Source of the DNA: a virus
Direction: 5' to 3' (one strand)
Virus record (IMG/VR): IMGVR_UViG_3300009419_000017
Coordinates: 1 to 64,000 of that record
Length of the DNA: 64,000 nucleotides
Part shown: positions 4,705 through 27,019 of the stretch, piece by piece
Layout of the letters: each line of letters begins with the position of its first letter
How positions within the stretch are numbered: position 1 is the first letter of the stretch
Made by a program: the position numbers and the translations under genes
The notes under the pieces: model-generated
The model's database searches: none
What the model was told of the DNA's origin: nothing
What the model saw: the letters and a program-made list of their open reading frames with translations, nothing else

Positions 4705-4719
4705 ATGCTATAATTGATT

Positions 4720-4920: not shown

Positions 4921-4931
4921 CCCATACACCC

Positions 4932-5182: not shown

Positions 5183-5183
5183 C

Positions 5184-5256: not shown

Positions 5257-5265
5257 CAAATAGTG

Positions 5266-7265: not shown

Positions 7266-7266
7266 G

Positions 7267-7941
7267 CTATGCCCTTTTATCTTTAAAGTCTACAAGGTCT
7301 TTGAAGTGTTGGTTTTCTGGTCTATCTCCACGGTACGTAGGATCATTAAATGTAGAGTGAGCAGAGCCAAAGATATATCCAAACAGCTTTCCATACTTTT
7401 CAAAATAGGTTCTATGGAACATGGTATCTTCTGGTCCCCAACCCTTTATCCTTTCTTCAAAGCCTCCAAGCTCTTGGAATATAGCTGCAGGGACAACGAT
7501 GCTCCCACTACATGGCCACAACCTTCTTGGAAGGGTATCTGAATAAGAAAGCGTAGGTGGAGAGAACTCCTTGCCTAGCTTCATGTCATATCTAATCTTT
7601 TTTAGAAAGACAGAAGTCTCTTTGGCATCCTTATGCTGAAAGTATTTAGTGTAGGGTGCAGCAATCTCATTGTTTTTTACTGCATAGGTAATTGCTTTTT
7701 TTAAAACAGCTGGGTCTACAAAAAAGTCAGCATCATTGAAGATGATTATGTCAGCACCTAGATCAAGGGCTTTCTTAGCCCCAGAATTTCTTGCTTGAGC
7801 TAGGTTAAAGTCTTTTTCTGAGCTGTCGGATATAATTATTTCAAAGTCTGGAAAGTTGGCCTGGTATAAACTAGTAACTTTTTCAAAAGCTTCTACCCTG
7901 CTGGGATGAGATCTCCAGGGAATGACTATAAAAACTTTCAC
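7267..7941 (-). CDS. galactosyltransferase-like glycosyltransferase
   Basis: 224-residue GT-A enzyme: N-terminal nucleotide-binding strand MKVFIVIPWR, DxD-type metal/sugar-nucleotide site IIFNDADFF (D70, D72), and the GWGPEDTMF segment near residue 168. That segment is characteristic of the C-terminal domain of GT7/GT27-like galactosyl and GalNAc transferases and supplies the catalytic acid. The start ATG overlaps the stop of the upstream GT32-like gene, showing translational coupling. Cytoplasmic; probable role in building or capping a surface glycan. Confidence 0.82.
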   Translation of the reverse strand: MKVFIVIPWRSHPSRVEAFEKVTSLYQANFPDFEIIISDSSEKDFNLAQARNSGAKKALDLGADIIIFNDADFFVDPAVLKKAITYAVKNNEIAAPYTKYFQHKDAKETSVFLKKIRYDMKLGKEFSPPTLSYSDTLPRRLWPCSGSIVVPAAIFQELGGFEERIKGWGPEDTMFHRTYFEKYGKLFGYIFGSAHSTFNDPTYRGDRPENQHFKDLVDFKDKRA

Positions 7942-8672
7942 AGAGATACCCCAAACTTTTTAGCAAAATATTCTATTGCAGAACCTTTCGGCAAACTTTG
8001 CTCAGTGTCAAAACCTTGCATTCTTAGTGATCCAGTAAAAAATGTTGCACAATATGCTGCTTCTGAAGCTTTAACAATCTCGTCTTTATTTTTTGGATTC
8101 CAAAAGTTTTTCCCTAAACTCCAATGATCTAACAAGTTAACTAATCTTGCTGGTTGTGCATAAGAAGATAGCCCAAACTTATTCACCATTTTGGTCAAAA
8201 GCATTGGGCCTAGCATTGCCCACTTAAAAGACTTGGAGCTGGTCTTTAGCCTAGGCAGTAATGAGCTAGCCTGAACATTAATTTGTTTAGTCATAGCGTG
8301 GTCGCTTGGCATTTTTAAAATTCCTCCAGCAATTAACGTGTCAGATTCTTTTATAAAAACAAATGGAGTATCTTCAAAGAAATCTTTATTTAAACACAGA
8401 GTGTCTGCATCAACCCACATAAGATCAGTTTTCTCTATCATCTTATATCTAAAGTAGTCTGAGAAAGCAGCGAGTTGACCATGATGCTTAAAAATTTTAT
8501 TTGCAGGCACTATCTCCTCTGCATTTTTCTTGATAACCCCAGCAGGGACTTTCATGTCCATGTCATAAACATAGAGAGACACCTCGTGACCATAGTAAAC
8601 AAAAGATGTCAGGCATAGTCTTTGGACAAAACCAAGACCATCCCCAATCCACAAAGAGCCTACCTTGGCCAT
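7938..8672 (-). CDS. GT32-like glycosyltransferase
   Basis: GT-A glycosyltransferase with SLWIG near the N-terminus, a FSDYFRYKMI helix and the DxD motif in LMWVDADTL (D88, D90), the pattern of GT32/OCH1-like sugar transferases. The start is uncertain. An in-frame TTG at 8708 gives 12 extra residues but overlaps the -10 region. The ATG at 8672 has no clear SD but fits where family members begin. A minus-strand TATAAT at 8707-8712 could start the transcript near 8701. First gene of the three-gene glycosyltransferase operon. Confidence 0.75.
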   Translation of the reverse strand: MAKVGSLWIGDGLGFVQRLCLTSFVYYGHEVSLYVYDMDMKVPAGVIKKNAEEIVPANKIFKHHGQLAAFSDYFRYKMIEKTDLMWVDADTLCLNKDFFEDTPFVFIKESDTLIAGGILKMPSDHAMTKQINVQASSLLPRLKTSSKSFKWAMLGPMLLTKMVNKFGLSSYAQPARLVNLLDHWSLGKNFWNPKNKDEIVKASEAAYCATFFTGSLRMQGFDTEQSLPKGSAIEYFAKKFGVSL

Positions 8673-8703
8673 AGTACACCAGGGAACGTTAGTAATGTCA
8701 TGA

Positions 8704-8717
8704 TACAATTATAGCGT
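8704..8717. promoter_or_regulatory. overlapping divergent -10 boxes
   Basis: Plus strand: TACAAT (8704-8709), 8 nt before the ATG at 8718. Minus strand: TATAAT (8707-8712), pointing toward the glycosyltransferase operon. The two boxes overlap, so the polymerases would compete for the same site. Confidence 0.5.
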
Positions 8718-11358: not shown

Positions 11359-12075
11359 ATGGTAGAATATAAGAAAAGGACAGATGTGCCAAAAATTCCA
11401 ACAAGATATTTAGATATATCGGAAAATCAGGGTTTTGATAATGCCCTAGTAGAAAGCGCTAGAGAGATTTCAGAATCTCAGTTAGCAAATTCTAAAGTTA
11501 TCCCAAGCCGAGAACATTTTATAAAGTATCTTCCAGAAAACCTCAGGTACCTAGAGATAGGAGTTGCCTGGGGATATTACGCTGATTTAGTTTGCTCCAA
11601 AAATCCCGCAGTGCTTCACTTAATGGATACCTACAACCAGGATCTAAAGTGCTGGTCTTGGAGAAAGTTTGGAGAGTGCAAATGTGATGGCAAGAAGCAT
11701 GAACTTCTTTACTCTCCCGAAACGCATCAGGACTATATAGATAAAAAGTATAGCGGGCATAACGTATTGACTATAAAGGGCAAGGCTCCTGACCAAATTA
11801 ACCAGTCTTATGAATACGATTTTATATATATTGATTTTATCAATGAAAGGTTTGCAATCCGTGACACCCTGGACAAGTGCAAGGACATGGTTCCAGTTGG
11901 AGGATACCTTGGGATTAATGACTATTTAATCTATGATGGAATTATTGAAGACTCCTCCTATGGTACATACCAGGCAGTAAATGAATTTTTGTACTATAAT
12001 AGAAACTGGGAAGTTGTCTTTTTGGCACTACATCCAGTTGGATTTTATGACATTTATTTAAGGAAAATATTTTGA
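11359..12075 (+). CDS. class I SAM methyltransferase (Methyltransf_24-like)
   Basis: 238 residues. Motif I is YLEIGVAWGYYADL (64-77), followed by an acidic strand end (HLMDTYNQD) and the YDFIYIDFINERFAIRDTL and GGYLGINDYL segments. This layout matches CmcI/Methyltransf_24-type O- or N-methyltransferases that act on sugars or secondary metabolites. Its TGA overlaps the TTG start of the SGNH-hydrolase gene, so the pair is coupled. Likely a glycan-tailoring enzyme; the acceptor is unknown. Leaderless promoter at 11348-11353. Confidence 0.75.
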   Translation: MVEYKKRTDVPKIPTRYLDISENQGFDNALVESAREISESQLANSKVIPSREHFIKYLPENLRYLEIGVAWGYYADLVCSKNPAVLHLMDTYNQDLKCWSWRKFGECKCDGKKHELLYSPETHQDYIDKKYSGHNVLTIKGKAPDQINQSYEYDFIYIDFINERFAIRDTLDKCKDMVPVGGYLGINDYLIYDGIIEDSSYGTYQAVNEFLYYNRNWEVVFLALHPVGFYDIYLRKIF

Positions 12076-13019
12076 AACGTGATCTTAATACAAAGAAAAA
12101 AGACATCTCTAACTTTTTAGTAACTGCTGCCAATATTGAAAAAAGTTCTGGTATTGACGATGTGTTTTTTAATAAATTTGACATAACCTGGGCAAAAAAT
12201 TCCAGAGATTCTTTTTCAAAGACGACGCTAATACACCCAGTGGAAGTTGATGGACCAAGTAGGCATGGCATAGTTCCTGACGAAAATATTGTTTATGAAT
12301 TTAATAATGAATGGTTTAGGAGTGATGACTTTATAGTTGATCATTCAGAAAAGTATCATGTCCTTTTTGCTGGCTGCTCAGAAACTGAAGGGGTTGGCTC
12401 AAGCTTAGACACTGTATGGACAAAAATGCTACACGAATCATTAAAAAATGACTACGATATTGGTGGATTCTATAGTGTTGCAAAGTCTGGATTTGGATGG
12501 CAAAAAATAATCACTAGCGTTATGATATACATAAAAAAATATGGAACCCCAACGCACCTATTTATACTATTACCCAATATTGATAGAATGTTTAAGTGGT
12601 TTGACAGTGAAAGAATATGGAGATATATTCAAAGATTTCCAATCGGCGTAGGGGATCCAAAAGAGCATGATGGAATGAGATCTGCGACTGAAGAAGAACA
12701 CATGGAGATGTTGATAAATTTTATAATTAGCTGGAAACTTTTTGAGCAATACTGCAAGTTACTCAATATAAAGGTTTTGTGGACTACATGGGATTCAGAA
12801 GAAAATGAAAACCACCGCATATTTAATCAAAGTGAGAATTTCTTTATAGGTCATACAGATACAGAACTTGCTAATTTTATAAAAGCTCATAGGCCAGATG
12901 GAAAACTAGAAGAAGATGATCTTAACAGAAGAGATGGTCATTCTGGCAAACTGTATCACATGTTTTGGAAAGAAAATTTTTATAATGAAATAAATAAAAG
13001 GGGCCTATTTAATGATTAA
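12072..13019 (+). CDS. SGNH/GDSL-type hydrolase
   Basis: 315 residues, TTG start overlapping the preceding TGA. Block I is VLFAGCSETEG with nucleophile S103 (the usual GDSxTxG with Cys for Asp). The C-terminal catalytic block is DGHSG (D288, H290), the DxxH-like site of SGNH esterases and acyltransferases. Middle segments (GYGTPTHLFILLPN-like) fit blocks III-IV. Probable sugar O-acyl esterase or acyltransferase. Its coupling to a CmcI-like methyltransferase supports a glycan-modification role. Confidence 0.75.
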   Translation: MKRDLNTKKKDISNFLVTAANIEKSSGIDDVFFNKFDITWAKNSRDSFSKTTLIHPVEVDGPSRHGIVPDENIVYEFNNEWFRSDDFIVDHSEKYHVLFAGCSETEGVGSSLDTVWTKMLHESLKNDYDIGGFYSVAKSGFGWQKIITSVMIYIKKYGTPTHLFILLPNIDRMFKWFDSERIWRYIQRFPIGVGDPKEHDGMRSATEEEHMEMLINFIISWKLFEQYCKLLNIKVLWTTWDSEENENHRIFNQSENFFIGHTDTELANFIKAHRPDGKLEEDDLNRRDGHSGKLYHMFWKENFYNEINKRGLFND

Positions 13020-13092
13020 AAAATTTCTTGTTTGGTATAGATTTAGGAAAATAAAAAAAGAAATTGGTAAAGGTAGAAAATTTATTTACTAG
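13012..13092 (+). CDS. 26-residue basic peptide
   Basis: An ATG overlapping the SGNH stop (AATGATTAA) opens a 26-codon ORF with a short hydrophobic start (MIKKFLVWYRF) and a Lys/Arg-rich remainder. The last codons overlap the convergent gene. Real translation is plausible from the overlap but unproven. Confidence 0.3.
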   Translation: MIKKFLVWYRFRKIKKEIGKGRKFIY

Positions 13093-13364
13093 TTCTCTTC
13101 ACTAGTAAACATTTTTGCAAGTCTTACTTCGCACAACTTTCCCTGATGTCTGTCGGTAATCATTCCATCTACCTTAGCGGCAAATGCAGGCGTAGCGTTA
13201 AATCTCCATCCGCCAGACAACTCTGCAAACTGATCCTCGTCCTGTCCAGCCTTAAGTCTAATTATGGAAACATCTGGATGCTGCTGGCTAAATAGATCAA
13301 CCTTTTCCTGGACTTCCTCTGATGCTAAGCAGTTGTCTCCGCTTACAAAAATTAATTCTTTCAT
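13089..13364 (-). CDS. thioredoxin-fold-like protein
   Basis: 91 residues with a thioredoxin-like outline: strand MKELIFVSGDNC, a helix, a second strand SIIRLKAG, and a cis-Pro-type ATPAFAAKVDG followed by a beta turn. Only one Cys (C12) is at the active-site position and the second is missing, so classic dithiol chemistry is unlikely; a monothiol role is possible. GGGGG-rich SD 7 nt before ATG 13364. Confidence 0.6.
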   Translation of the reverse strand: MKELIFVSGDNCLASEEVQEKVDLFSQQHPDVSIIRLKAGQDEDQFAELSGGWRFNATPAFAAKVDGMITDRHQGKLCEVRLAKMFTSEEN

Positions 13365-13409
13365 GGGTGCCCCCTTCTTTTGAGCAATTAATTGTACCAG
13401 ATTCTGTGA

Positions 13410-13439
13410 TATAATTTTTATATAATTGAAAGGTAATAC
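13410..13439 (+). promoter_or_regulatory. promoter and RBS of 2OG oxygenase
   Basis: TATAAT at 13410-13415, then an AT-rich leader carrying GAAAGGTAAT, ending at the GTG 13440. Nearly the same leader as for the oxygenase at 5299. Confidence 0.6.
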
Positions 13440-14153
13440 GTGAACAAAGAACGTTTAGAGGATGCCCAATCTGGGGTCACAAAAAGCCGTAGAGGCAACG
13501 TATTTCCATACGAGTCTCCAATCCCTGGTGTACACATTTATAGCAATATTTGGCCAAACTCTATAGAATTTTTTAATAAAATTGACGGCGATGAGTATTG
13601 GGATAAAAACCCTAATGGCAATAAAAGATGGATTCGGGAAGATTATTTAGATGAAGATACTGGCAAAAAAAGTCAGACCTGTTGGATTTGGAGCGATCCA
13701 GAGGTAACAGAGGGCTTAGAAGAAGTTATCGACTCTTATCTATACCACTGGAATCTAGGTGCAAAGAGTAGGGAAGACCTTAGAATAACCAAGTTTACTG
13801 GACCAGGTGAGTTTTTTGGATCTCACTCTGATGATACCTTCGCCACTCCGAGAACCGCTTCAATGGTTTATTACCCAAATGACGATTACGAAGGTGGAGA
13901 GCTAGAGTTTATACATTTTGGAGTAACTGTAAAACCAAAGGCTGGACAGTTATTTTTATTCCCATCTGGATATAGCTATGAGCATAAGGTCCACCCTGTA
14001 AAAAGTGGAACTAGGACTACTATGGTTTGCTTTTTTAATGAAATCACTTTTGAAGAAAGAGAAAGCAGGCAGAGTCTTTTAGATCCTAACAAATACTACC
14101 AGCCAAAAGTTGAGTACGTTTTTCAGCCAGAGTTTGGAAATACCCAGGAATAA
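13440..14153 (+). CDS. 2OG-Fe(II) oxygenase, P4H-like
   Basis: 237 residues, GTG start. Iron ligands H129-x-D131 (HSD) and H182 (SYEH), with R192 (SGTR) for 2-oxoglutarate. The YYPNDDYEGGELEF and KPKAGQLFLFPSG strands are diagnostic. The first residues (MNKERLEDAQ) and the leader resemble those of the 5299 gene, so the two look like duplicates that have diverged. It is flanked by the minus-strand holin candidate and the terminator at 14159. Confidence 0.87.
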   Translation: MNKERLEDAQSGVTKSRRGNVFPYESPIPGVHIYSNIWPNSIEFFNKIDGDEYWDKNPNGNKRWIREDYLDEDTGKKSQTCWIWSDPEVTEGLEEVIDSYLYHWNLGAKSREDLRITKFTGPGEFFGSHSDDTFATPRTASMVYYPNDDYEGGELEFIHFGVTVKPKAGQLFLFPSGYSYEHKVHPVKSGTRTTMVCFFNEITFEERESRQSLLDPNKYYQPKVEYVFQPEFGNTQE

Positions 14154-15126: not shown

Positions 15127-15368
15127 TGAGTCTCCACCCCACCCTCTCTAACTAGCAGCACGATAGCCCCGTTGTCCTCTAGGGCCTTTTTAACTCTTAT
15201 CATATATTCTACAGCACGGCGCTTGTCTTCGTCAACCAATTTCATAAAGACATCTTCTTTTGCTTTTACCGTAATAAAGTTATCGTTGTCTATAACCTGC
15301 ACCCCAAAACCCTTGGGAGCAAAATGATCTAATGACCTAAAGGCCCTTTGCATTGCATCTGTATACAT
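15123..15368 (-). CDS. hypothetical protein
   Basis: 81 residues, mixed alpha/beta, no recognised motif. Overlaps both neighbours by 1-4 nt, in the same leftward operon as the WhiB-like gene. Confidence 0.6.
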   Translation of the reverse strand: MYTDAMQRAFRSLDHFAPKGFGVQVIDNDNFITVKAKEDVFMKLVDEDKRRAVEYMIRVKKALEDNGAIVLLVREGGVETQ

Positions 15369-15652
15369 TAGTTATCCATCGTTAAGTATTTCCAGGTTTC
15401 TGCCCATTCTGGCTTACTCCTGTGCTTGTTAAATTCTCTAGAAATTTTACCGCCTTCTAGATAAACTCCACCCCAGACTCCCCATTCTTTTTGGGAGATG
15501 CCCACTGCAAAACACTGTGTTGCAACTGGACATTTAGAGCATAGCTTATCTATGGCAGGCCTAAGAGTTAGATCTTCTTCGTATTTATCAAAAAATAAAT
15601 TTGGATCATAGTCCTGGCATGAAGCTTCATTTTTCCATTCATTGGGTTGCAT
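15368..15652 (-). CDS. WhiB-like [4Fe-4S] transcription factor
   Basis: 94 residues with the four WhiB cysteines C12, C38, C41 and C47 (C...CxxCxxxxxC) and the G-W segment GVWGGVYLEGG (58-68) that contacts sigma-factor region 4. WhiB proteins are essentially restricted to actinobacteria and their phages and bind the primary sigma factor to redirect promoters. The basic C-terminal tail could touch DNA. This is the best single host marker in the window. Start ATG 15652 with GGGGTGA upstream. Confidence 0.9.
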   Translation of the reverse strand: MQPNEWKNEASCQDYDPNLFFDKYEEDLTLRPAIDKLCSKCPVATQCFAVGISQKEWGVWGGVYLEGGKISREFNKHRSKPEWAETWKYLTMDN

Positions 15653-18356: not shown

Positions 18357-19001
18357 TCATTCATCGCCAGTAGAGTCAAGCATTTGTTTTGTATTGTGGT
18401 ACCAGTGTGGCATCGAATATCTAAAGCCAGATGCTATGGGATACACCTCATGTACATATAAAAAGTTAGATGGGAAGAAAATAATGCTTCCAGCTTCTGG
18501 TTTTAGCTTAACGCCAGAATTTATAAACTCAATCTCTCCGCCTTCATAATTATCATTTAGATACATTACTGATGAAAGGACTCTAGTAGAAACTCCCTGA
18601 TCTTGGTGGGCTGGCAGGTGTCCTCCAGGCCCGTACTTTAACAAATGAATGCTTGGCTCTCTAGACTTTACGTTATTTTCTGCGAATGGATAGATCTGCT
18701 TAGAGTAGTGAGAGAAAGCTTTTTCTAAAGACCCATAAAGAATATCTGCTATTACTCTCATTTCTGATGCATAGTAGTCGTTGTCAAATATTGCATGAGA
18801 CTCTGGGAAAAATTTTTGCATGTTGAAAGTCGTATTTCCATACTTCCAGGGGGACCACTCTTTAACAAAAGTATACTGATCCCCATGCTCATTTGCTAAA
18901 AATCTTTTGTCAAGATCTTCTATTAAACTAATAAGCTCGTTAGGCTTTTCAATAGCCTCTTTGTAGTATACTAAGCCTAAGTCTAAAATGTCATACTTCA
19001 T
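18357..19001 (-). CDS. 2OG-Fe(II) oxygenase, P4H-like
   Basis: 214 residues. Ligands H132-x-D134 (HQD), H184 (LYVHEV) and R194 (SGFR). Strands MYLNDNYEGGEIEF and KPEAGSIIFFPSN match the family. Its start overlaps the stop of the NodU-type carbamoyltransferase (ATG over TAG/TGA region), so hydroxylation and carbamoylation enzymes are co-translated. This suggests a two-step O-carbamoylation of one substrate, which is inference. Confidence 0.88.
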   Translation of the reverse strand: MKYDILDLGLVYYKEAIEKPNELISLIEDLDKRFLANEHGDQYTFVKEWSPWKYGNTTFNMQKFFPESHAIFDNDYYASEMRVIADILYGSLEKAFSHYSKQIYPFAENNVKSREPSIHLLKYGPGGHLPAHQDQGVSTRVLSSVMYLNDNYEGGEIEFINSGVKLKPEAGSIIFFPSNFLYVHEVYPIASGFRYSMPHWYHNTKQMLDSTGDE

Positions 19002-20419
19002 CTAACTATTTCCGTTCCGTAGGTTTGTTCCCAGTCAATTATATCATTCTCATCATTAAGCAACGGCTGGCCCTTTATATTAAGACTAGTATTCAAAAGC
19101 AAAGGCACCCCAGTTTTTTCATAAAACATCTTCAGCAGGTCATAGAGTCCTGGATGCTGAGACCTATTAACCGTCTGTACCCTGGAAGTGCCGTCCACAT
19201 GGACAACAGAAGGAATTAGTTCTGGCTTCAAGCATTTAGGAGTGTATTGCATATAAGGGCTTGTATAGTCCATGTCAAACCATTCTGAGGCATACTCCTC
19301 CATTATGACTGGAGCAAAGGGCCTAAATAGCTCACGTTGTTTTATTAAGTTAACTCTATCTTTTATGTTAGGATCTCTTGGATCTGCCAAGATACTCCTG
19401 TTCCCTAATGCCCTTGGCCCAAACTCTGCCCTGCCAGTAGCCACGGCAGCGACCCCATCTTTCATAATACGATCAAAAATCTTTTGAATGGGATATTCTC
19501 CACCAAGGTCATACCCCAGATACGGACCTTCCCACTTTATGTGCTTATTCAGAACCGCTAGAGCTGACCCTAAAGAGGATCCAGCATCTCCTGGGTTTGG
19601 CATAATCCAGATATCGTCAAAAATTTTCCAAAGAATAGTATTTGCAGATGCGTTTAGTGCACAGCCACCCATAAAGACAAGGTTATTATAATCTGGCAGA
19701 AGTCTTGACCTAACGTCGTGCATAAAGTCAGTTAGCCTTAGCTCATACACTAGCTGAACTGCAGCAGCTATGTCAAATTTTGCTTGCTCGTCAATCTCTT
19801 CTTCCCAGTCGTGGATTCCTTTGTGGTAATTGTACTTCTGCTGTTTAGTGTTTGGGAAATACTGTAAAACTTTTTTATAGTATCTGTTTGGATCTCCGTA
19901 TCCAGCCATGCCCATTAAAATATATTCGTGCTCATTTGGCTTTAATCCGATCAAGTCTGTGAAAGCAGTATAGAATAATCCAAAGCTAAGTGGGTACTTA
20001 ATCTCTTTAATTAGTTTTATATTTTCCCCATCACCCGCCCAGACGGTAGAGGTCGAAAACTCTCCGATTGCATCTAGAACTACTATCGCTGCTTTGTCAA
20101 ATGAACTTGTATAATAGCCAGCACAGGCATGTGAGTAGTGATGCTTAAATGCTTTGTCGTGTCTATGCCTTGGCTTCCATTCAGCCTTGCCACCTCGTAG
20201 CAGTAGCCTCAGCTGCTTTAGCCTTGGCTTTTCGTAATAAGCTATGGCATCTGGATCTCCAAACTTCAGACCATCATCCCAGAGAGCCTTGTTTGTATAC
20301 CAGTCATTTTTTTCTTTGCTATATCTTTCAGCATGACCCGCAAACAAAATTGTGTTGCTGTCAATAACGGCAAGGGCCGCATCGTGAGATGTTTCATTAA
20401 ATCCAAAAATTCTCAACAT
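18998..20419 (-). CDS. NodU/CmcH-type O-carbamoyltransferase
   Basis: 473 residues. N-terminal Kae1/HSP70-like domain begins FGFNETSHDAALAVI (7-21) and contains HHYSHACAGYY (about 92-103) with metal-binding His; MGGCALN and NPGDAGSSLGSAL follow. The C-terminal YrdC-like part carries GRAEFGPRALGNRSI and LLLNTSLNIKGQPL. It transfers a carbamoyl group from carbamoyl phosphate through carbamoyl-AMP to a hydroxyl. Relatives decorate Nod factors, antibiotics, glycans and, in some phages, hypermodified bases. Its stop and start overlap oxygenase genes on both sides, so one operon. Confidence 0.9.
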   Translation of the reverse strand: MLRIFGFNETSHDAALAVIDSNTILFAGHAERYSKEKNDWYTNKALWDDGLKFGDPDAIAYYEKPRLKQLRLLLRGGKAEWKPRHRHDKAFKHHYSHACAGYYTSSFDKAAIVVLDAIGEFSTSTVWAGDGENIKLIKEIKYPLSFGLFYTAFTDLIGLKPNEHEYILMGMAGYGDPNRYYKKVLQYFPNTKQQKYNYHKGIHDWEEEIDEQAKFDIAAAVQLVYELRLTDFMHDVRSRLLPDYNNLVFMGGCALNASANTILWKIFDDIWIMPNPGDAGSSLGSALAVLNKHIKWEGPYLGYDLGGEYPIQKIFDRIMKDGVAAVATGRAEFGPRALGNRSILADPRDPNIKDRVNLIKQRELFRPFAPVIMEEYASEWFDMDYTSPYMQYTPKCLKPELIPSVVHVDGTSRVQTVNRSQHPGLYDLLKMFYEKTGVPLLLNTSLNIKGQPLLNDENDIIDWEQTYGTEIVR

Positions 20420-21021
20420 TACTCCTTAGAGTATGGGTGCTGTTGTGCTGGCCAAATGCTTCTATCTACTTCTGGATGAAATTCTGGATCTAGATACTTA
20501 GGAATGCTTGTGTGCATATACAAGGCCGTGTGCCTTGCCCCAGATGTAACTGTTGTAATTCCATGGATATATTCTGATCCTGCGCTTGGGAAAAATACAG
20601 CAGAGTATTTCCTTGGCTTATATTCAAAATCTTGGTTTGGGAAATATATAAGACCGCCTTCATAATCACTAGGATCATTTAGATAAATTATCGTACTCCA
20701 CTCAATAAATGGCTCTGGATCTTGGGCATCCATATGCAGGTCTCCCTTTGTTCCTGGGTTCCACCATGAACCAAAAGCCTTAAACACATAAATTGGATTT
20801 ACAAATCCATTCTTTTCTTTATGAACATCATTTGATTTATGACCATACTTAATCAATATGTCCATAACACGCTTATTGTATGGAAATGCTGTGCCACCAT
20901 ATCGCTCAGAGTAGTATTCTGGATATGGGTTTCTTTCAGAAGGATTCTTTTGCTCATCAATTAGAGTCTGTGCGTCCTCTGGTGTAATAAAGTTGTCAAT
21001 GATAGTAATTCTGTGTGTCAT
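20419..21021 (-). CDS. 2OG-Fe(II) oxygenase, P4H-like
   Basis: 200 residues. Ligands H96-x-D98 (LHMD), H153 (YIHGI), R163 (SGAR). IIYLNDPSDYEGGLIYFP and KPRKYSAVFFPS are the conserved strands. Shares its last base with the carbamoyltransferase start. Good AAGGAG-like SD (AAGGAGAACC) before ATG 21021. It belongs to the operon 21843 to 18357 together with a glycosyltransferase, the carbamoyltransferase and a second oxygenase. Confidence 0.88.
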   Translation of the reverse strand: MTHRITIIDNFITPEDAQTLIDEQKNPSERNPYPEYYSERYGGTAFPYNKRVMDILIKYGHKSNDVHKEKNGFVNPIYVFKAFGSWWNPGTKGDLHMDAQDPEPFIEWSTIIYLNDPSDYEGGLIYFPNQDFEYKPRKYSAVFFPSAGSEYIHGITTVTSGARHTALYMHTSIPKYLDPEFHPEVDRSIWPAQQHPYSKE

Positions 21022-21033
21022 GGTTCTCCTTAT

Positions 21034-21843
21034 TTAGTATATCGACTTTACGTTAGAAATAAATTTCCTGGAATCTATGTCATTTATTTTAAGACTATTT
21101 GGGTTGTATAAAACATCGTCATTTGTATATGGCAAAGGCAGTATTGGACACTTATCTAGTCCCACATACCTCCAAAAACTATCAGATATTGTATCTATAA
21201 CTTTACCATACTTATGCTCTATAGAAAATGTTTTATACTTAGTCTCTAGGGTTCTTTGCTCAAGGTCTGATCCCAAAGAACTTGGGGCATTATAAACATG
21301 GTAGCCTTTCTCAAAGCAACTAAAAGATAGCAACTCATCTTCCCCAAGATACTTTACTTTTATAGGATAGGTAACTGGCTTTAAGGTCTTTGTTTTTGAA
21401 AAAATTAAATTCTTACTTATAATGCTGCTTTGAACAAAACTATCTGACTCTTCGGATTCCGCAATTATTGTAAACAGGTCCCTGTTTTTAAAGTGCTGCT
21501 TGCCTATGCCAGAAACAATAGTTTTATTATCTTTAATAAAATCTATTAAGATGTTGTCCCAACCATCTTTAACCATAATGTCATCTGATAATACTAAAAA
21601 GTATTCCGAAGAGCTCTCGTGAATTGTTTTCGACTTATACTCGCAAGGGCTATTTAGGTAATCCCAAAAAATATGGTTATATGATATTTGTGGGCTATCG
21701 AACATTTCTTTTCTGTCTAAAGGGTGTTGGTCATAAACGTGTATATAAATGTCATTACTGGTTGACGAAATAAGATTGTCAACAACTTCCTTTAGGAATT
21801 TATTTTTGTATGAATAGATAACGGCATCAATCGTTGTCGTCAT
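21034..21843 (-). CDS. GT60/GT2-like glycosyltransferase
   Basis: 269 residues. GT-A type: strand AVIYSYKNKFLKEVV, then CEYKSKTIHESSSEYFLVLSDD with D87-D88 and KDGWDN (93-97). This is the arrangement of GT60-like GlcNAc-transferases, where an aspartate/His site is followed by GWD. Overlaps the upstream 21827-22594 gene by 17 nt. Probable sugar transferase of the modification operon; acceptor unknown. Confidence 0.65.
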   Translation of the reverse strand: MTTTIDAVIYSYKNKFLKEVVDNLISSTSNDIYIHVYDQHPLDRKEMFDSPQISYNHIFWDYLNSPCEYKSKTIHESSSEYFLVLSDDIMVKDGWDNILIDFIKDNKTIVSGIGKQHFKNRDLFTIIAESEESDSFVQSSIISKNLIFSKTKTLKPVTYPIKVKYLGEDELLSFSCFEKGYHVYNAPSSLGSDLEQRTLETKYKTFSIEHKYGKVIDTISDSFWRYVGLDKCPILPLPYTNDDVLYNPNSLKINDIDSRKFISNVKSIY

Positions 21844-22594
21844 GGCTTACCTCTGGTGACTTTTTATTAAATATACCAAAATTCTTTTTTCTCCAGGCAA
21901 ATTTTTTATAATATCCATAAAGCATAGATCGCCTATTTTCAGCCATGAGCTCATGCTTATCTAGCTCTTCGTCTGTATCTATAACCTTTGACTCCCAGTC
22001 TTCTCTTTTGAATGGGATTATTTGAAATATTGGCGTGCCTTTGGGAATCACCCCTCTAAAATTTCTCTTTAGAAAAAATGCAGTAAAGACTGGAAGACCC
22101 CAAATGTCGGACTCCACAATTCCAGACAGGGTATAAAACGGAAGGTCGTGCCTATTCATCGGTTGTGTAACCAGTACAGAGTAGCCTGGTGGGGTTTCGT
22201 AATACCAATTCATCCTCCAGCCATAGTGAATTGGGTGGCAGTTATCTGGAACTGGAACCTCTATCGTTGGCCTAGTGTCTACAATCATGACGTCACCTTT
22301 CCAGGACAAAACTGGAACTCCGTTTTCATCCAAGTCTACATAAAGGTCATCCTCTAAAACATACTGGTATCCAGCTGTTAGCGCATCAAAGAAGGGCATA
22401 CACATTTTTGTAGCCACCTGTGCTCCATCGGTTCCTAGAGAGTTTTGGGGGCTTAGCGTCTTGTCGCTATTAGATTTTTCAAACTTTGCCAAGCTTCTAT
22501 ACCATTCTGGGACATGCCTTGTCGCTGGCTGTGGAGCAGTTAGCCTGTCTCCAGGCATTCTAAAAGATGGAATAAAATTAATTATGTTTGACAC
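21827..22594 (-). CDS. conserved phage protein (DUF6065-like), copy A
   Basis: 255 residues of a family I associate tentatively with DUF6065. The opening PQPATRHVPEWYRSL, then MCMPFFDALTAGYQ, YSVLVTQPMNRHD, GTPIFQIIPFKREDWES. The same blocks occur in the broken neighbour (22594-23316), so the two genes are tandem duplicates. No catalytic motif known to me; the His/Trp/Pro-rich strands suggest a cupin-like beta barrel. It sits directly upstream of the glycosyltransferase and oxygenase genes. Confidence 0.65.
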   Translation of the reverse strand: MSNIINFIPSFRMPGDRLTAPQPATRHVPEWYRSLAKFEKSNSDKTLSPQNSLGTDGAQVATKMCMPFFDALTAGYQYVLEDDLYVDLDENGVPVLSWKGDVMIVDTRPTIEVPVPDNCHPIHYGWRMNWYYETPPGYSVLVTQPMNRHDLPFYTLSGIVESDIWGLPVFTAFFLKRNFRGVIPKGTPIFQIIPFKREDWESKVIDTDEELDKHELMAENRRSMLYGYYKKFAWRKKNFGIFNKKSPEVSHDDND

Positions 22595-23019
22595 TAATTA
22601 TATTCTTTCTTTGATCTAAAGATAAGCTTATAGCCATTTGCGAACATGCTACGTAGCTTAAGTCTCTGGTTTAATAAAGTTTTCTTTGAGTCTTCTGCTT
22701 CTGTAATCTCCGACTCCCAGTCATCTCTCTTGATTGGAATGACTTGTACTAATGGAGTGCCACGCTTAATTATACCCTTAAACCCCTTTTCTACAATAAA
22801 GGATAGGTGGCCTTCTGTAATAAACTTGTCGGAGTCAACTAAAGCTGGTATTGCAGTTAGTGGGTAGGTGTCTCTGTGAACTGGATTTAAGAATAGTGTG
22901 CTATATCCAGGATCTGTTTTCATATACCAGAACGGCATTATTCTGAACAATGTTTCATGTTGACGACTTTTATCTATTGGGTATTCGTCATATTGTTGTT
23001 TTTCATGGGAAGAAAACAT
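22594..23019 (-). pseudogene. DUF6065-like copy B, C-terminal part
   Basis: This 141-codon ORF is the C-terminal part of the interrupted paralog of the 21827-22594 gene (YSTLFLNPVHRD, GTPLVQVIPIKRDDWES). It is in the same frame as 23068-23316 and is separated from it only by one TAA codon (23068-23070) and 16 sense codons. An internal ATG at 23019 could restart translation, but no convincing SD is present. Probably part of a gene killed or controlled by a nonsense codon. Confidence 0.7.
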
Positions 23020-23067
23020 GTCTGCCTGGAATTGCTTAATTGCAATTGGTATAGACCAAGTTAGCTT

Positions 23068-23316
23068 TTATGGATTTGTAGAATCTAGGTAGACGTCGCA
23101 TGGCATAGTTATCATATAGCCAGCAGTCATTATGTCAAAAACTGGCATGCACCTTTTAACAGTTGAGGTAGAGTATCCCTTTGGAAGTGTTTCGGCATCA
23201 TTAACTGTGCCCTTTTGCTTTCTATACCACTCTGGCACAAACTTTGATGCTGGCTGAGGCGGATCTGTATAGGCAGAAGTGCTCTCGCTATGTTGATAAA
23301 ACTTAATCTTTGGCAT
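23068..23316 (-). CDS. DUF6065-like copy B, N-terminal part (nonsense codon)
   Basis: 82 codons that match the N-terminus of the 21827 protein (PQPASKFVPEWYRKQ, KRCMPVFDIMTAGYM). The frame ends at an in-frame TAA (23068-23070), after which homology resumes without a frameshift. The complete reading frame is 22594-23316 (about 240 codons), close in length to the intact paralog. The ATG at 23316 overlaps the end of the upstream gene by 14 nt. Confidence 0.7.
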   Translation of the reverse strand: MPKIKFYQHSESTSAYTDPPQPASKFVPEWYRKQKGTVNDAETLPKGYSTSTVKRCMPVFDIMTAGYMITMPCDVYLDSTNP

Positions 23317-23974
23317 AAAATTCCTTAATCCCTAAGTCTATTATAGCATTCCTGGAAATTACCATATCGTAAACTGGAGACAGCCTTTTGACCTTTCCAA
23401 ACTCAGAGTCTGCCATATGGCTGCCTTCTTTTTTAAATCTAAATGGTATCATGAATGGCTCAAGGTATCTTGTTTCTTCAGGAATTTTAATGCAATTCCT
23501 TGTGGTTTCAAATACTTTAAATGCAGACTCTTCTTCTGGAACTACAAATCTAACTTCACAGGCTGAATCAATTATCCAAGGAGTATACGCTACAAACATA
23601 TCGTCAAAACACTCGGGGTCCAGGTCTGCAACATAAGATGATTTGTAGAATTGTCGCAACCAAGGTCTATCTAGAAACTTTCTTTCTTTTTTATTCACTA
23701 GAATAAAAACTTCTGCATGGCTGTATTGCCTTAGTCTAATAAAATTATCATCGATGCTGATTAGTTTTGGTGCTGGATAGAGAGCTTCTGCGTATTTGTT
23801 AATTGGCTTTATAACACTGCTTTTATATTTTTCTGATGATGCAATTTTTTGAAAATTTAACCACTTCTCTGGAACTCTAGATTTAAAAGAAATTTCTACA
23901 AAGTTTGGATCATAGCTTGATTTCCATATGCCAAAGTCATAGTCCGTGTTAGTGAGTATATCTGGCTTATCCAC
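23303..23974 (-). CDS. hypothetical protein of modification operon
   Basis: About 223 residues from GTG 23974, which has GCAGGAAACC just upstream; the in-frame TTG at 23986 is less likely. Segments PEKWLNFQ near the N-terminus and KRLSPVYDMV near the C-terminus echo the PEWYR and CMPVFDxxT blocks of the two DUF6065-like neighbours, so it may be a distant third relative. Function unknown. Confidence 0.6.
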   Translation of the reverse strand: MDKPDILTNTDYDFGIWKSSYDPNFVEISFKSRVPEKWLNFQKIASSEKYKSSVIKPINKYAEALYPAPKLISIDDNFIRLRQYSHAEVFILVNKKERKFLDRPWLRQFYKSSYVADLDPECFDDMFVAYTPWIIDSACEVRFVVPEEESAFKVFETTRNCIKIPEETRYLEPFMIPFRFKKEGSHMADSEFGKVKRLSPVYDMVISRNAIIDLGIKEFYAKD

Positions 23975-24149
23975 GGTTTCCTGCAATCAAGATAGAAATA
24001 AAGTCTGACTGATGTATAGTCATGTCTGAGACTTTACTAATAATTTTTGACACACTGCCCCTAGCTATCGTTTGATTTGCCATGCTAACATTTATACCAA
24101 TTCCAATTTGACAATACTTGCCAAAAACAGTTTCGATATCTTTTAAAAT
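23967..24149 (-). pseudogene. RsmI-like methyltransferase, C-terminal part
   Basis: 60 sense codons in the same frame directly after the internal TAA (24150-24152) of the RsmI-like gene. The sequence (QIGIGINVSMANQTIARGSVSKI, ending ILIAGNRG) fits the C-terminal sheet of tetrapyrrole-methylase-fold enzymes, which end in a G-x-x-x-hydrophobic-x-G strand. It has no start codon or SD of its own near the stop. It ends at TAA 23967-23969, overlapping the next gene. Confidence 0.65.
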
Positions 24150-24680
24150 TTACAAAACTTTAGAGTTATGATCTCTTCTATTTTTAACTAAAAACAAGTA
24201 TGGCATTCTGCTTTCTTTAATCCAGACGAGCCTCTCTATCCGAATGTCTGAAGACTCTCCTGGAACATCGTCTTCGAATATAAATGATTTTCCACCTATC
24301 CCAAGTATAGCAGGCAGGGCTGAAATAATCGATGGGCCTGGAATCACTTCTACTGGCAAGCCCTCCTCATGAGCAATAACAATTATTTTGCCGCCTGGGT
24401 CTGCTATGCTAGCCATCCCATCATCTGGACATATCAAAACATCTTTATTGTTTTTGAGTGCCTCAACAACTTTTGAAATTATTGGCTCTTCAAGCGCTTC
24501 ATCCATTGGGACATAGTACTCAATAACAGATCCACACGGAACAACTGACAAATCTTTACAAAGATTATCAAACATAGATTTATTTTCGACCAAGACAATG
24601 TCTGAGTCTTTGATTGCAGATATCATTCTGCTACCAATATCTAGCCTATTGCCAATGTCTACTCCGCCAACAATTAACAT
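24150..24680 (-). CDS. RsmI-like tetrapyrrole methylase-fold methyltransferase (nonsense codon)
   Basis: 176 codons, continuing after one TAA for 60 more in frame. The fold's hallmarks are present: MLIVGGVDIGNRLDIGSRM opening (family: G-x-PIGN), CPDDGMASIADPGGKII (family: SDAGTPxISDPG) and VIPGPSIISALPAILGIGG (family: PGPSAxxxALxxSGL). RsmI methylates the 2'-OH of C1402 in 16S rRNA. It lies 15 nt after tRNA-Thr with a GAAAGG SD, so it would be made from the tRNA transcript; tRNA or rRNA is the plausible substrate. Unclear whether functional, because the end of the domain is lost. Confidence 0.75.
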   Translation of the reverse strand: MLIVGGVDIGNRLDIGSRMISAIKDSDIVLVENKSMFDNLCKDLSVVPCGSVIEYYVPMDEALEEPIISKVVEALKNNKDVLICPDDGMASIADPGGKIIVIAHEEGLPVEVIPGPSIISALPAILGIGGKSFIFEDDVPGESSDIRIERLVWIKESRMPYLFLVKNRRDHNSKVL

Positions 24681-24695
24681 ATATGCCTTTCTTCG

Positions 24696-24767
24696 AGCCT
24701 CCTGTCAGGATTGAACTGACGACCTACGCATTACAAGTGCGTTGCTCTACCACTGAGCTAAAGAGGC
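24696..24767 (-). tRNA. tRNA-Thr (TGT)
   Basis: 72 nt; acceptor GCCTCTT/AGGAGGC, anticodon loop CTTGTAA on stem ACGCA/TGCGT, T arm GTCAG-TTCAATC-CTGAC. No encoded CCA. Last of five in the leftward tRNA array. Confidence 0.92.
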
Positions 24768-24768
24768 G

Positions 24769-24841
24769 TACTCCCAACGGGATTTGAACCCGTGCTACCG
24801 CCGTGAAAGGGCGACGTCCTAGGCCACTAGACGATGAGAGC
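24769..24841 (-). tRNA. tRNA-Glu (TTC)
   Basis: 73 nt; acceptor GCTCTCA/TGGGAGT with a terminal G-U pair, anticodon loop CTTTCAC on stem TCGCC/GGCGG, T arm CGGG-TTCAAAT-CCCG. It is one nt from tRNA-Thr. Confidence 0.9.
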
Positions 24842-24918
24842 CAGTGCTAGTTTTCTCCTAAAGACGAAACTTTAAGCGGAGTCATTCCACCACGAAAAAC
24901 TAGCAAACGCAGTGGCAG
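24842..24918 (-). other. long-hairpin spacer between tRNA-Asp and tRNA-Glu
   Basis: On the minus strand GCTAGTTTT pairs with AAAACTAGC (9 bp, outer ends 24903 and 24846). Inside are nested CTCC/GGAG and TAAAG/CTTTA helices with an asymmetric 13-14 nt bulge on the 5' side. No tRNA cloverleaf can be drawn, because a T arm with GTTCRA is missing. Probably a structured linker or processing element. Confidence 0.5.
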
Positions 24919-24992
24919 CGACCCTGACCAGACTTGAACTGGCGACCTCCTCCGTGACAGGGAGGCGCTCTAACCAACTGAGCTACAGGGCC
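24919..24992 (-). tRNA. tRNA-Asp (GTC)
   Basis: 74 nt; acceptor GGCCCTG/CAGGGTC, D arm AGCTCAGTTGGTTAGAGC, anticodon loop CTGTCAC on CCTCC/GGAGG, T arm GCCAG-TTCAAGT-CTGGT. Discriminator G as expected for Asp. Confidence 0.93.
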
Positions 24993-25046
24993 TGGTGTCC
25001 ACTTTTATCCCTTCTCTCATTGGGAGTGGTGTAGACTAAACCATTA
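24993..25046 (-). repeat. tRNA spacer hairpin, copy 1
   Basis: 54 nt between tRNA-Gly and tRNA-Asp, clearly homologous to the 25119-25171 spacer. Shared blocks are ATGGT, ACCACTCCC, AGGGATAAAA and TGGACA. Minus-strand outer helix GTCTAC/GTGGAC (one G-U), inner TCCC/GGGA. Confidence 0.7.
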
Positions 25047-25118
25047 GAGCGAATGGAGAGAATCGAACTCTCACCGTCAGTTTGGAAGACTGAGGCACTA
25101 CCACTATGCAACATTCGC
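25047..25118 (-). tRNA. tRNA-Gly (TCC)
   Basis: 72 nt; acceptor GCGAATG/CATTCGC, anticodon loop CTTCCAA on TCAGT/ACTGA, T arm GAGAG-TTCGATT-CTCTC. Discriminator U. Confidence 0.93.
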
Positions 25119-25171
25119 TATGTCCATTTTTATCCCTATACCCGTGGGAGTGGTATGGACCACACCATAAG
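25119..25171 (-). repeat. tRNA spacer hairpin, copy 2
   Basis: 53 nt between tRNA-Asn and tRNA-Gly. Minus-strand outer helix GTCCAT/ATGGAC, inner TCCC/GGGA. The innermost outer-helix pair is T-A here and C-G in copy 1, a compensatory change. Confidence 0.7.
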
Positions 25172-25243
25172 CTCTCCCTCGTGGACTCGAACCACGAACC
25201 TTAGAGTTAACAGCTCTCTGCTCTGCCATTGAGCTAAGGGAGA
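25172..25243 (-). tRNA. tRNA-Asn (GTT)
   Basis: 72 nt; acceptor TCTCCCT/AGGGAGA, anticodon loop CTGTTAA, T arm CGTGG-TTCGAGT-CCACG, discriminator G. First of the array, 8 nt after the subtilase ORF. Confidence 0.92.
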
Positions 25244-25251
25244 AAACCTAT

Positions 25252-25578
25252 TTAGTTATTTTTGACTGCAGCAGTAACGGTTGCTACAGATGTTGTAAAG
25301 CCAACCATAAACGGATTAGCATCTACTAGGTTGATTGGAAAGGAGTCGTGCAACCCTTGGACCGCTGTCCTGGTAGACTTTAAAGTTTTGCTCGTATATC
25401 CATTGCCAGAAAGAACCACGTCTGATCTCTGTGTGCTACCAATAAACTGAGTAGAGCCAACTGCAATAGAGTCTGAGATACAGGCTGGATAATCAATATT
25501 GTTTCCGCTTCCATAGTTTCCAGAAGAAGCATAGAACTTAACATTAGATGTCTTTAGAGCCGTAATAGCCTTAACCAC
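25252..25578 (-). pseudogene. subtilase, C-terminal part
   Basis: C-terminal part of the subtilisin-like gene, in the same frame as 25642-26037 and separated from it by one TAA (25642-25644) and 21 sense codons. It carries the oxyanion Asn segment YASSGNYGSG and the catalytic Ser block FTTSVATVTAAV (family GTSMAAP). A GTG at 25578 is the only nearby alternative start, without an SD, so a separate protein is unlikely. Confidence 0.7.
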
Positions 25579-25641
25579 ATTATCGTGAGTTGTTTTAATA
25601 GCTACCCCTGGCGATGCTGGAGAACATTTTGCACCATTACC

Positions 25642-26037
25642 TTAGTTGTAGGAAAATGATACTGCCTTAATGTTATACTTAGCCGAATTAGTAATTACCC
25701 AATTAAGAGCATTAGCCAGCTGAATTCCAGTAATAACTCCAGTCTTAGTTGTGCCTGCTTCAATTAAAACTAGTGGGACGTCTGGACCAGCAGATCTAGC
25801 AATGTCTGCCATAACTGTTCCATGATTAAATGCCTTAAACTCTGAAGCATTTCTTGGAGTTGCGGCTGAGCTACACACTGAAGGTGCTGCCAAGCAAACC
25901 TCTGTTACTTCTCCACCGATTAGATTGGATTCAAAATTTACATCGATAATTGCAACTGCTCCGTTAGCATTTGCCTGAGCTGGAATAATTCCAACAACCA
26001 CAAGAACTGCAGCAAGAGCGATAATTACTTTTTTCAT
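25642..26037 (-). CDS. secreted subtilase, N-terminal part (nonsense codon)
   Basis: 131 codons. Residues 1-24 are a Sec signal peptide (MKKVIIALAAVLVVVGI..., ending ANA). The catalytic Asp lies in AIIDVNFES and the catalytic His in FNHGTVMADI (family HGTxVA). The frame stops at TAA 25642-25644 in SFSYN, then continues without shift to the Ser and Asn motifs; the uninterrupted protein would be about 261 residues. The triad is therefore split by one nonsense codon. Followed by the tRNA array. Confidence 0.75.
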   Translation of the reverse strand: MKKVIIALAAVLVVVGIIPAQANANGAVAIIDVNFESNLIGGEVTEVCLAAPSVCSSAATPRNASEFKAFNHGTVMADIARSAGPDVPLVLIEAGTTKTGVITGIQLANALNWVITNSAKYNIKAVSFSYN

Positions 26038-26052
26038 ATTATTTATTTCTTT

Positions 26053-26271
26053 CTATTGATTAATTAATTTAATAACTGGTGAACACGGGTCTCCGCCGTC
26101 TTCCCATTCTTTTTCTTCTTCTTCTGTCATGTACGGATCTCCGTCATGAGTGTAGCAGAATGGCTCAGTTACCCAGCCATTACTAATGCCAACCATAAGC
26201 CATTCATCAAAATCAGGCGGTGAGGGCTCATTGTCTACGATGTTATCCATAGAAAAATCCTTTTGAGTCAT
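26053..26271 (-). CDS. small acidic hypothetical protein, consensus leaderless promoter
   Basis: 72 residues starting at ATG 26271; the longer ORF from 26373 reads through the promoter and is rejected. Acidic, with TEEEEKEW and two Cys (FCYTHDGDP, DPCSP). No recognised family. Its promoter has a perfect TTGACA and TATAAT at 17 bp and 6 nt to the ATG. First gene of the transcript leading to the subtilase and tRNAs. Confidence 0.65.
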   Translation of the reverse strand: MTQKDFSMDNIVDNEPSPPDFDEWLMVGISNGWVTEPFCYTHDGDPYMTEEEEKEWEDGGDPCSPVIKLINQ

Positions 26272-26306
26272 ATATACATTATATCCAATTCGAGGAAGCT
26301 TGTCAA
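26272..26306 (-). promoter_or_regulatory. perfect consensus leaderless promoter
   Basis: Minus strand: TTGACA (26301-26306), 17-bp spacer, TATAAT (26278-26283), 6 nt to ATG 26271. The -35 overlaps the stop codon of the upstream methyltransferase gene. It probably drives the 26271 gene, the subtilase and the tRNA array. Confidence 0.85.
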
Positions 26307-27019
26307 CTATTTTTGAGTGACTGGTGGTAGCCTGACCACTTGCATAAATATAAGGCAAGTTTTTCGTCCTCAATAGTAGTTAGGGAGGGATGGTCAATAA
26401 AGTTTTTTAGCAAAAATTCTCGCCATCTTTTACCAACTTTATGTCTATTAGTATTAAGATACTCTTCTAGTAAAAATTCTGAATCATTTTTTGGGAATTC
26501 TTTTTTTAGAAATAAACCCTCAATAGACCATGGCCAGTATGTTTCTGTTTTTATTCTTTTAAAAATTTTAGACATATCCATCAGCTTCCAAGAGTCGGGC
26601 TGTAGTTCATAGTGATCTGGTAAAAAACAATCATATTTTACATCAGTTTCATAGGTTGTGGCATCTCCTGAAATGATTTTAATTTTATGATTTTCTGGAT
26701 TACTTTCTAAAAAAGCTTTTTCTACATCTGAATTTAGCTCAAGAACTGTTACGCTAGAAACATTTTCTTTTTGTGCAAGGGCAATTGGAAGAATCCCAAA
26801 GCCCAAACCAGTTAACAAAACATTTCCGTAAGCTAGATCATATTGGGAATAAAAAGTATCTTTTGGATGAGTAAAGTCTTTATCAGTTTGCATCCAACCT
26901 ATACCATTATGATATAAAAAATATGCCTGCCTTTCAGGCTCAAAAATTATTTCTACTTCTCCATAAACACCTGGAACAATATTTGGCATTGTGGCATCAT
27001 GTATTGTTTTAAGATTCAA
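26303..27019 (-). CDS. class I SAM methyltransferase, spermidine synthase-like
   Basis: 238 residues from TTG 27019 (AAAGGG upstream; the ATG at 26989 lacks an SD). Motif I LLTGLGFGILPIAL (about 70-83), acidic strand end VTVLELNSDVEKAF, ISGDATTYE and YDCFLPDHY match spermidine-synthase/class I methyltransferase Rossmann folds; the usual fourth-motif Asp is followed by HYE. Probably a small-molecule or protein methyltransferase; target unknown. Expressed from the dyad-embedded promoter upstream. Confidence 0.7.
   Translation of the reverse strand: MNLKTIHDATMPNIVPGVYGEVEIIFEPERQAYFLYHNGIGWMQTDKDFTHPKDTFYSQYDLAYGNVLLTGLGFGILPIALAQKENVSSVTVLELNSDVEKAFLESNPENHKIKIISGDATTYETDVKYDCFLPDHYELQPDSWKLMDMSKIFKRIKTETYWPWSIEGLFLKKEFPKNDSEFLLEEYLNTNRHKVGKRWREFLLKNFIDHPSLTTIEDEKLALYLCKWSGYHQSLKNS

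Follow-up and report, generated by a model that had tools for sequence, protein, structure and literature searches.

A linked, exchangeable phage gene cassette that probably adds a carbamoyl-capped sugar to protein or glycan

Results

Two oxygenase genes, a carbamoyltransferase gene, and a glycosyltransferase gene lie in one minus-strand block

We analyzed bases 1-64000 (hereafter the window, 64,000 nucleotides) of IMGVR_UViG_3300009419_000017, a 68,646-base IMG/VR virus record. An initial annotation of this DNA had described four genes, encoding two oxygenases (OX1 and OX2), a NodU-type carbamoyltransferase (CT), and a glycosyltransferase (GT), as an operon of overlapping genes that specifies a decoration pathway. 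All four open reading frames (ORFs) are present on the minus strand, where they make up the downstream part of a block (18357-23986) that has three more genes upstream (Table 1). The description of the genes as overlapping holds for OX1 and CT (4 nt) and for CT and OX2 (1 nt), but GT and OX2 are separated by 12 nt. GT also overlaps the next gene upstream, DUF6065 copy B, by 17 nt, and all ORF junctions in the block are overlaps of 1-17 nt or a gap of 12 nt, except between the halves of a broken DUF6065 gene. A promoter scan, to which we gave no weight, found 46 promoters, compared to 41.7 expected from shuffling.

Because the window contains a WhiB-type gene (15368-15652; PF02467, 49.7 bits) and a terminase that is ~53% identical to those of Streptomyces phages such as Gilson, the sequence evidence points to an actinophage. 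Phages isolated on Nanopelagicales likewise encode collagen-like proteins, glycosyltransferases, and whiB-like proteins, according to the accessible part of their description (PMC10202952).

Table 1. Genes of the block, in order of position in the window
Feature	Coordinates	Strand	Basis
OX1: 2-oxoglutarate (2OG)-Fe(II) oxygenase, prolyl-hydroxylase-like, 214 aa	18357..19001	minus	PF13640, 62 bits
CT: NodU/TobZ-type O-carbamoyltransferase, 473 aa	18998..20419	minus	PF16861 and PF02543 above cut-off
OX2: 2OG-Fe(II) oxygenase, prolyl-3-hydroxylase-like, 200 aa	20419..21021	minus	PF13640, 31 bits
GT: glycosyltransferase with a GT-A fold, distant relative of PF11397 (GT60-type) proteins, 269 aa	21034..21843	minus	Fold; hhalign
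DUF6065 copy B, 255 aa, predicted to fold like a dUTPase	21827..22594	minus	phrog_7084, 8.4e-34; fold
DUF6065 copy A, interrupted by a single in-frame stop	22594..23316	minus	phrog_7084 on each half
First gene of the block, no assigned family, 227 aa	23303..23986	minus	Relatives at CT loci

OX1 and OX2 are most similar to prolyl hydroxylases

Both oxygenases score above the PF13640 cut-off of 27 bits. The HxD..H motif and the 2OG arginine are invariant in all 13 aligned OX1 sequences and all 12 aligned OX2 sequences. By profile, the solved structure nearest to OX1 is a Bacillus prolyl 4-hydroxylase (1.1e-6); PKHD types, prolyl 3-hydroxylase 1 (P3H1), and HIF prolyl hydroxylase also match, and Tet-like enzymes reach 0.065. 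The nearest for OX2 is prolyl 3-hydroxylase 1 (2.9e-8), followed by PKHD types. The Bacillus enzyme acts on prolines of synthetic peptides, as described in the available part of the source (PMC8968730). By domain, motif, and nearest relatives, we classify OX1 and OX2 as putative prolyl-hydroxylase-type 2OG oxygenases, with proline as the predicted substrate. OX1 matches 280 phage records.

Related domains occur under other names. Three PHROGs named ferrochelatase, endonuclease V, and DNA endonuclease (phrog_3531, phrog_274, and phrog_2297, respectively) match 2OG oxygenases over the oxygenase domain, and these names look misleading. Three adjacent minus-strand genes without a named family in the window (39009-39761, 39754-40338, and 40328-40984) contain, as judged by eye, an HxD and a later His as in 2OG oxygenases. 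Two of the three are weakly labeled "ferrochelatase" by PHROGs, and the trio has no oxygenase match in Pfam or NCBIfam. Three more genes occupy 11359-14153: a third PF13640 oxygenase, a methyltransferase-like gene, and a member of a family inserted beside CT in many relatives. All three are also present in loci L005, L011, and L016.

The carbamoyltransferase retains its predicted active site

CT matches PF16861 (1.7e-53; 181 bits, cut-off 27), PF02543 (9.6e-36; 124 bits, cut-off 24), and phrog_1601, a "Nol-like carbamoyltransferase" (1.1e-96). An HxxxH motif and an Asp (H93, H97, and D278), which we take to be the Kae1-like active-site residues of NodU/TobZ-type enzymes, are invariant in all 11 CTs aligned (the window and 10 relatives), and their equivalents are present in the MetaGPA enzyme discussed below. 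CT is not NodU proper, as it scores 158 bits of the 1000 required by the NodU equivalog NF041651. NodU-type carbamoyltransferases act on sugars, carbamoylating N-acetylglucosamine (GlcNAc) units. Relatives of CT with 61-96% identity are encoded on 35 viral contigs, and 144 phage records match it. All these viral records may be fragments, and the family profiles used below derive from these same CT loci.

Among solved structures, CT comes closest to enzymes that tailor antibiotics (NovN type, GdmN, and TobZ), and PKHD-type oxygenases are among the matches of both OX1 and OX2. A small carbamoylated and hydroxylated molecule, nucleoside- or amino-acid-like and made in the style of an antibiotic pathway, would suit these likenesses. 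However, Pfam and PHROGs revealed no genes for scaffold making, activation, or export in the block. We judge such a product to be distinctly unlikely, though the first gene and DUF6065, which have no assigned role, leave some room for it.

The "carbamoyltransferase" gene of cyanophage S-SZBM1 also matches the NodU-type CT. Papers available in part assign cyanophage "carbamoyltransferase" to pyrimidine synthesis (PMC9146016, PMC10436341), a role that looks doubtful for genes of this type because of this match.

The glycosyltransferase appears related to polypeptide sugar transferases

The only Pfam match of GT, to PF00535, is below threshold (15.6 bits vs 23.3). Its structural model has a confident GT-A fold (predicted local distance difference test score [pLDDT] 83), and its best VIA superposition is with a polypeptide N-acetylgalactosamine (GalNAc)-transferase, GalNAc-T2 (Z 19.2; root-mean-square deviation [rmsd] 3.0 over 226 residues). 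SpsA (Z 15.5) and an LH3 domain (15.0) follow, and mimivirus R699 is among the Foldseek matches. The GT family aligns by hhalign with phage proteins of PF11397 (prob 97.4, E 1.1e-11), which we take to be the GT60 family, and 6 of 14 GT orthologues match PF11397 at E <= 1 (best 1.8e-4). From sequence and model, GT appears to be GT60-related, with a GT27-like GT-A fold. GT60 enzymes are polypeptide alpha-GlcNAc-transferases, relatives of GalNAc-transferases without a ricin domain, and some of them act on the hydroxyproline of Skp1 (Gnt1) or on mucin-type polypeptides, according to the accessible parts of two reports (PMC6939170, PMC8724618).

PF11397 genes occur in 14 of the 36 CT records (the record of the window and the 35 others) and in none of 14 control genomes. 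In L014, such a gene sits between two DUF6065 genes; in L019, a single gene (12110-14020), directly after OX2 and OX1, joins a PF11397 domain (48.8 bits) with one of the 12072-type family. DUF6065 lies within 2.5 kb of PF11397 at 27 of 80 loci (0.103 per kb, compared to 0.031 farther out); these are mostly near-copies, to which we gave no weight. The window contains three further overlapping or abutting GT-like genes (6576-8708), which are Stealth-CR2-like, GT2, and capsule-synthesis-like, the first and last with subthreshold matches.

The genes form a linked cassette whose members travel or are lost together

We examined 5 kb around the 35 CT loci, many of which end inside that distance. On the CT strand, OX1-type genes were found at 18 loci, OX2 at 14, DUF6065 at 13, GT at 12, the first gene at 11, and PF11397-type genes at 7.

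For a sample chosen independently of CT, we searched with the terminase, kept 80 loci of at least 600 matches, and used the 21 contigs of at least 25 kb (G048 was covered to 39,000 of its 39,299 bases). L240 and L243 were left out, as both were already in the CT set, and six PF11397-derived records were also not counted. L243 (the contig of L036) has the block; in L240 (the contig of L010), the block lacks OX1 and OX2. CT was present in 7 of the 21 contigs and a PF13640 domain in 13, including all seven with CT (Fisher 0.015). PF13640 counts are low, since this model fails to detect OX2 in G000; OX2 was therefore counted with its own profile. In all seven CT contigs, the first gene, DUF6065, GT, OX2, OX1, and CT lie on one strand within ~8 kb. 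Their order is also the same in all seven: first gene, DUF6065, GT, and OX2, followed by OX1-CT or CT-OX1. DUF6065 is present in two copies in four of these contigs and as one recognized copy in three. In 7/7, CT and a PF13640 domain share a strand and lie no more than 2.5 kb apart, compared to a mean of 0.66 with random placement (0 of 20,000 placements equaled the observed value). CT-less contigs contained a weak OX2 match (G055, 36 bits) and DUF6065 (G054, G059, and G061).

One explanation is that the locus is a hot spot of separate genes that aid infection, each with its own substrate, as CT, oxygenases, and PF11397 genes are each found without the others. This would leave unexplained the full set in all seven CT contigs, with its order kept apart from swaps of OX1 and CT, against the finding that neither GT nor the first gene occurs in any of the 14 CT-less contigs. 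We regard it as improbable. On the terminase tree, in which L240 and L243 were labeled as having the cassette, presence of the cassette changes six times, and at least five changes are forced by well-supported branches. From this co-occurrence, the absence of GT and the first gene elsewhere in the sample, and the tree, it follows that the genes of the set travel or are lost together, although the records may be fragments and the profiles are CT-trained. The earlier proposal of a linked decoration module thus stands: one linked, exchangeable cassette is well supported, and the catalytic residues of both oxygenases and CT are kept.

Cassette alleles differ between nearly identical phages

Contig G032 (which holds L034 and also L357) is 99.8-100% identical to the window in 1-kb bins from 28 to 44 kb and at least 99.9% identical in alignments from 44 to 64 kb. 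Between 20 and 26 kb, identity drops to 82-94% (drop region, 19664-27000); G032 begins inside CT, and the far edge of the divergent stretch lies outside the comparison. For the terminase and the ribonucleotide reductase (RNR) beta subunit, dS is 0, compared to 0.26-1.14 for block genes. Where measurable, dN/dS is 0.006-0.134 for block and control genes, indicating purifying selection throughout. Because the two phages diverge by 6-18% in the block despite ~99.9% identity along 36 kb, the sequences argue that cassette alleles are exchanged between phages. Five minus-strand tRNA genes (24695-25243) lie just upstream of the block, where G032 diverges from the window.

DNA is an unlikely acceptor

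The initial annotation had named DNA as a possible acceptor. In such a hypermodification pathway, an oxygenase would generate a hydroxymethyl base that GT and CT would then cap; we consider this highly unlikely. Although a 5-hydroxymethylcytosine (5hmC) carbamoyltransferase of phage type is already proven, and thymidylate synthase adjoins it in modified contigs, as reported in the accessible part of the study (PMC8670742), relatives of thymidylate synthase or hydroxymethylase are present in none of the 36 CT records (possible fragments), compared to 9 of 14 control genomes. Tet_JBP (PF12851) reaches 17.3 bits, below its cut-off of 34.9; a JBP-like route, which would not require a hydroxymethylase, leaves DNA a small probability. 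The dUTPase-like predicted fold of DUF6065 could mean nucleotide handling, but PF00692 (dUTPase) has no match in G000, DUF6065 included.

The window CT also shares just 25% identity with the proven 5hmC enzyme. That study, in the part available, names W408, G421, and R423 (TobZ numbering) as the most telling positions (PMC8670742). Mapped by offset with an assumed six-residue tag, the window CT has V, G, and R at these positions, whereas the proven enzyme has I, C, and T; the G and R are retained in all 11 aligned cassette-type CTs. Because relatives of thymidylate synthase are absent, the TET/JBP score is below cut-off, and the CT residues differ, DNA appears to be an unlikely acceptor.

A protein-linked, carbamoyl-capped sugar is the favored product

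The cassette probably adds a carbamoyl-capped sugar to protein or glycan, not DNA. We tentatively favor a sugar linked to protein, in an order of steps that we infer, because the oxygenases are nearest to prolyl hydroxylases and GT is nearest to polypeptide GalNAc-transferases and related to PF11397. OX2 and OX1 would hydroxylate side chains (prolyl-type, by their nearest relatives) of a phage virion or host protein. GT could then attach a sugar to the hydroxylated side chain or to Ser/Thr, and CT would move a carbamoyl group from carbamoyl phosphate, with ATP, onto a hydroxyl of the attached sugar. The resulting glycan may alter host recognition or binding. In the earlier suggestion, hydroxylation would create the carbamoyl acceptor; the families better fit a hydroxylation that feeds GT or acts apart, with CT capping the sugar.

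Several observations weigh against a protein-linked product. This reading is based on enzyme relatives and fold, with a predicted substrate, and because GT-A folds are common, the nearest fold alone fixes no acceptor. At E 1, PF11397 does not match the window GT, which carries SDD in place of DxH, presumably the metal motif of GT27 and GT60 enzymes; for these reasons, we call it GT60-related and not a member. At this position, all 14 GT sequences have S/T-D/P-D/E. Our OX profiles found an oxygenase around only 5 of 80 PF11397 genes. Among the 35 CT loci, GT is present anywhere in 14 and an OX1-type gene (5 kb, same strand) in 18, and CT therefore also works in other settings, which are clear at loci such as L013, L022-L024, and L032. 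L010 has the block with neither oxygenase, and G069 encodes two CTs with zero PF13640 domains in 106 kb. Finally, G044, G049, and G059 have collagen-like proteins and no oxygenase match.

The last point bears on collagen-like fibers, which we considered and rejected as the target. PF01391 was found at E 0.001 in 12 of the 36 CT records, G000 not among them, and Y positions in long collagen-like proteins are mostly T or Q. The window itself contains a collagen-like tail-fiber gene (GXY runs, 3799-4704), after which come a pair of tRNAs and an oxygenase with PF13640 (whole stretch, 3799-5928).

The acceptor could instead be a non-protein glycan, such as a polysaccharide of the actinobacterial host envelope (altered, for instance, to prevent superinfection) or a product of the other GTs of the phage, with the oxygenases acting on sugars or lipids. 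Sugars are the substrates of NodU-type CTs, more GT-like genes are present at 6576-8708, and allele swapping would suit a surface role. Carbamoyltransferases of unmodified contigs are flanked by group 1 glycosyl transferases, according to the accessible part of that study (PMC8670742). Nonetheless, as the closest relatives of the oxygenases are protein prolyl hydroxylases and those of GT are polypeptide sugar transferases, we view this alternative as somewhat unlikely.

DUF6065 has a dUTPase-like predicted fold

DUF6065 copy B scores 23.7 bits with PF19541, below the cut-off of 26.6. Copy A has an in-frame stop at codon 83, giving ORFs at 23068-23316 (82 aa) and 22594-23019 (141 aa), and its counterparts in L034 and L005 are unbroken (240-244 aa). 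With a split copy, the phage may make a reduced version of the modification. In the DUF6065 model (pLDDT 71; predicted template modeling score [pTM] 0.67), nearly all of the 50 Foldseek matches listed are named dUTPase, with one dCTP deaminase, and the 50 VIA matches listed consist entirely of dUTPases (best Z 10.3, with rmsd 5.1 over 128 residues). The G-I/L-V-D/E-x-D-like and KGTPIxQ stretches were aligned with dUTPase motifs by hhalign, although weakly (prob 1.8), and the dUTPase AG-x-DL (motif I Asp) and RSG are missing at like positions in DUF6065 (A2). The model thus predicts a dUTPase-like fold without dUTPase catalytic motifs.

DUF6065 is not named anywhere in the full-text literature searched, and its bacterial neighborhoods (80 loci of 164, mostly alphaproteobacterial; 40 with DUF6065 in the gene calls) gave no functional context. 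Recurring neighbors there, judged by eye, are sigma-factor, anti-sigma-like, and protease-like genes. In haloarchaeal viruses, DUF6065 genes adjoin tail genes, but on the opposite strand, in both of the records viewed among 52. For the first gene of the block, neither Pfam nor PHROGs gives a match below 0.1; relatives of this gene occur at 11 CT loci, and it is in place in all seven CT contigs of the terminase sample. The idea that it is a distant DUF6065 was not supported (hhalign prob 5.1).

Discussion

The pathway had been proposed as undescribed, and we found no such operon in the full-text literature searched, mostly without subscription journals and preprints. The closest parallels each share part of it. 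In protists, Skp1 is modified by PhyA and Gnt1 (GT60), likewise a prolyl-hydroxylase-type oxygenase and a glycosyltransferase without a ricin domain; here, in contrast, the genes form a phage cassette with an additional CT and DUF6065, the target is only predicted, and GT is just a distant relative. A Skp1-like route in a bacterial virus is a more specific scheme, which we consider doubtful: a phage prolyl hydroxylase would make hydroxyproline (or hydroxylysine), the GT60-related enzyme would glycosylate it, and a NodU-type cap would follow; allele swaps would change the recognized surface, and the DUF6065 proteins would be partners of GT that bind nucleotides or nucleotide sugars.

The mimivirus collagen pathway (L230 and R699; PMC9546862, available in part) likewise combines virus-encoded hydroxylation and glycosylation of protein. 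It differs in belonging to a giant virus, in using hydroxylysine, and, in what is available of the source, in having no carbamoyl step; the phage cassette is also not tracked by collagen-like proteins. The MetaGPA 5hmC carbamoyltransferase (PMC8670742, accessible in part) shares the enzyme family, the likely phage origin, and the HxxxH and Asp residues, but it is 25% identical, differs at all three diagnostic positions, and has a thymidylate-synthase partner of which the cassette shows no counterpart. NodU and the TobZ/GdmN/NovN-type enzymes share both domains and the catalytic residues, although CT falls far short of the NodU equivalog (158/1000). In Xanthomonas phage XacN1, a PF11397 GT (260 bits) is followed directly by a carbamoyltransferase (ORF334-ORF333); this is a jumbo phage, however, with no oxygenase recognized among the scanned neighbors.

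Cyanophages encode 2OG-Fe(II) oxygenases, with many copies per phage, and carbamoyltransferases of the same families. The available parts of the reports treat these as separate auxiliary genes for DNA repair, 2OG signaling, and pyrimidine synthesis (PMC3037559, PMC9146016, PMC10436341), and phage genes of these two widespread types, the 2OG-Fe(II) oxygenases and the NodU-type carbamoyltransferases, have so far been filed under these functions. The cassette links both enzyme types to a sugar transferase of a predicted protein-directed type in phages of freshwater Actinobacteria. It is kept together, yet its alleles appear to be exchanged in an otherwise near-identical genome.

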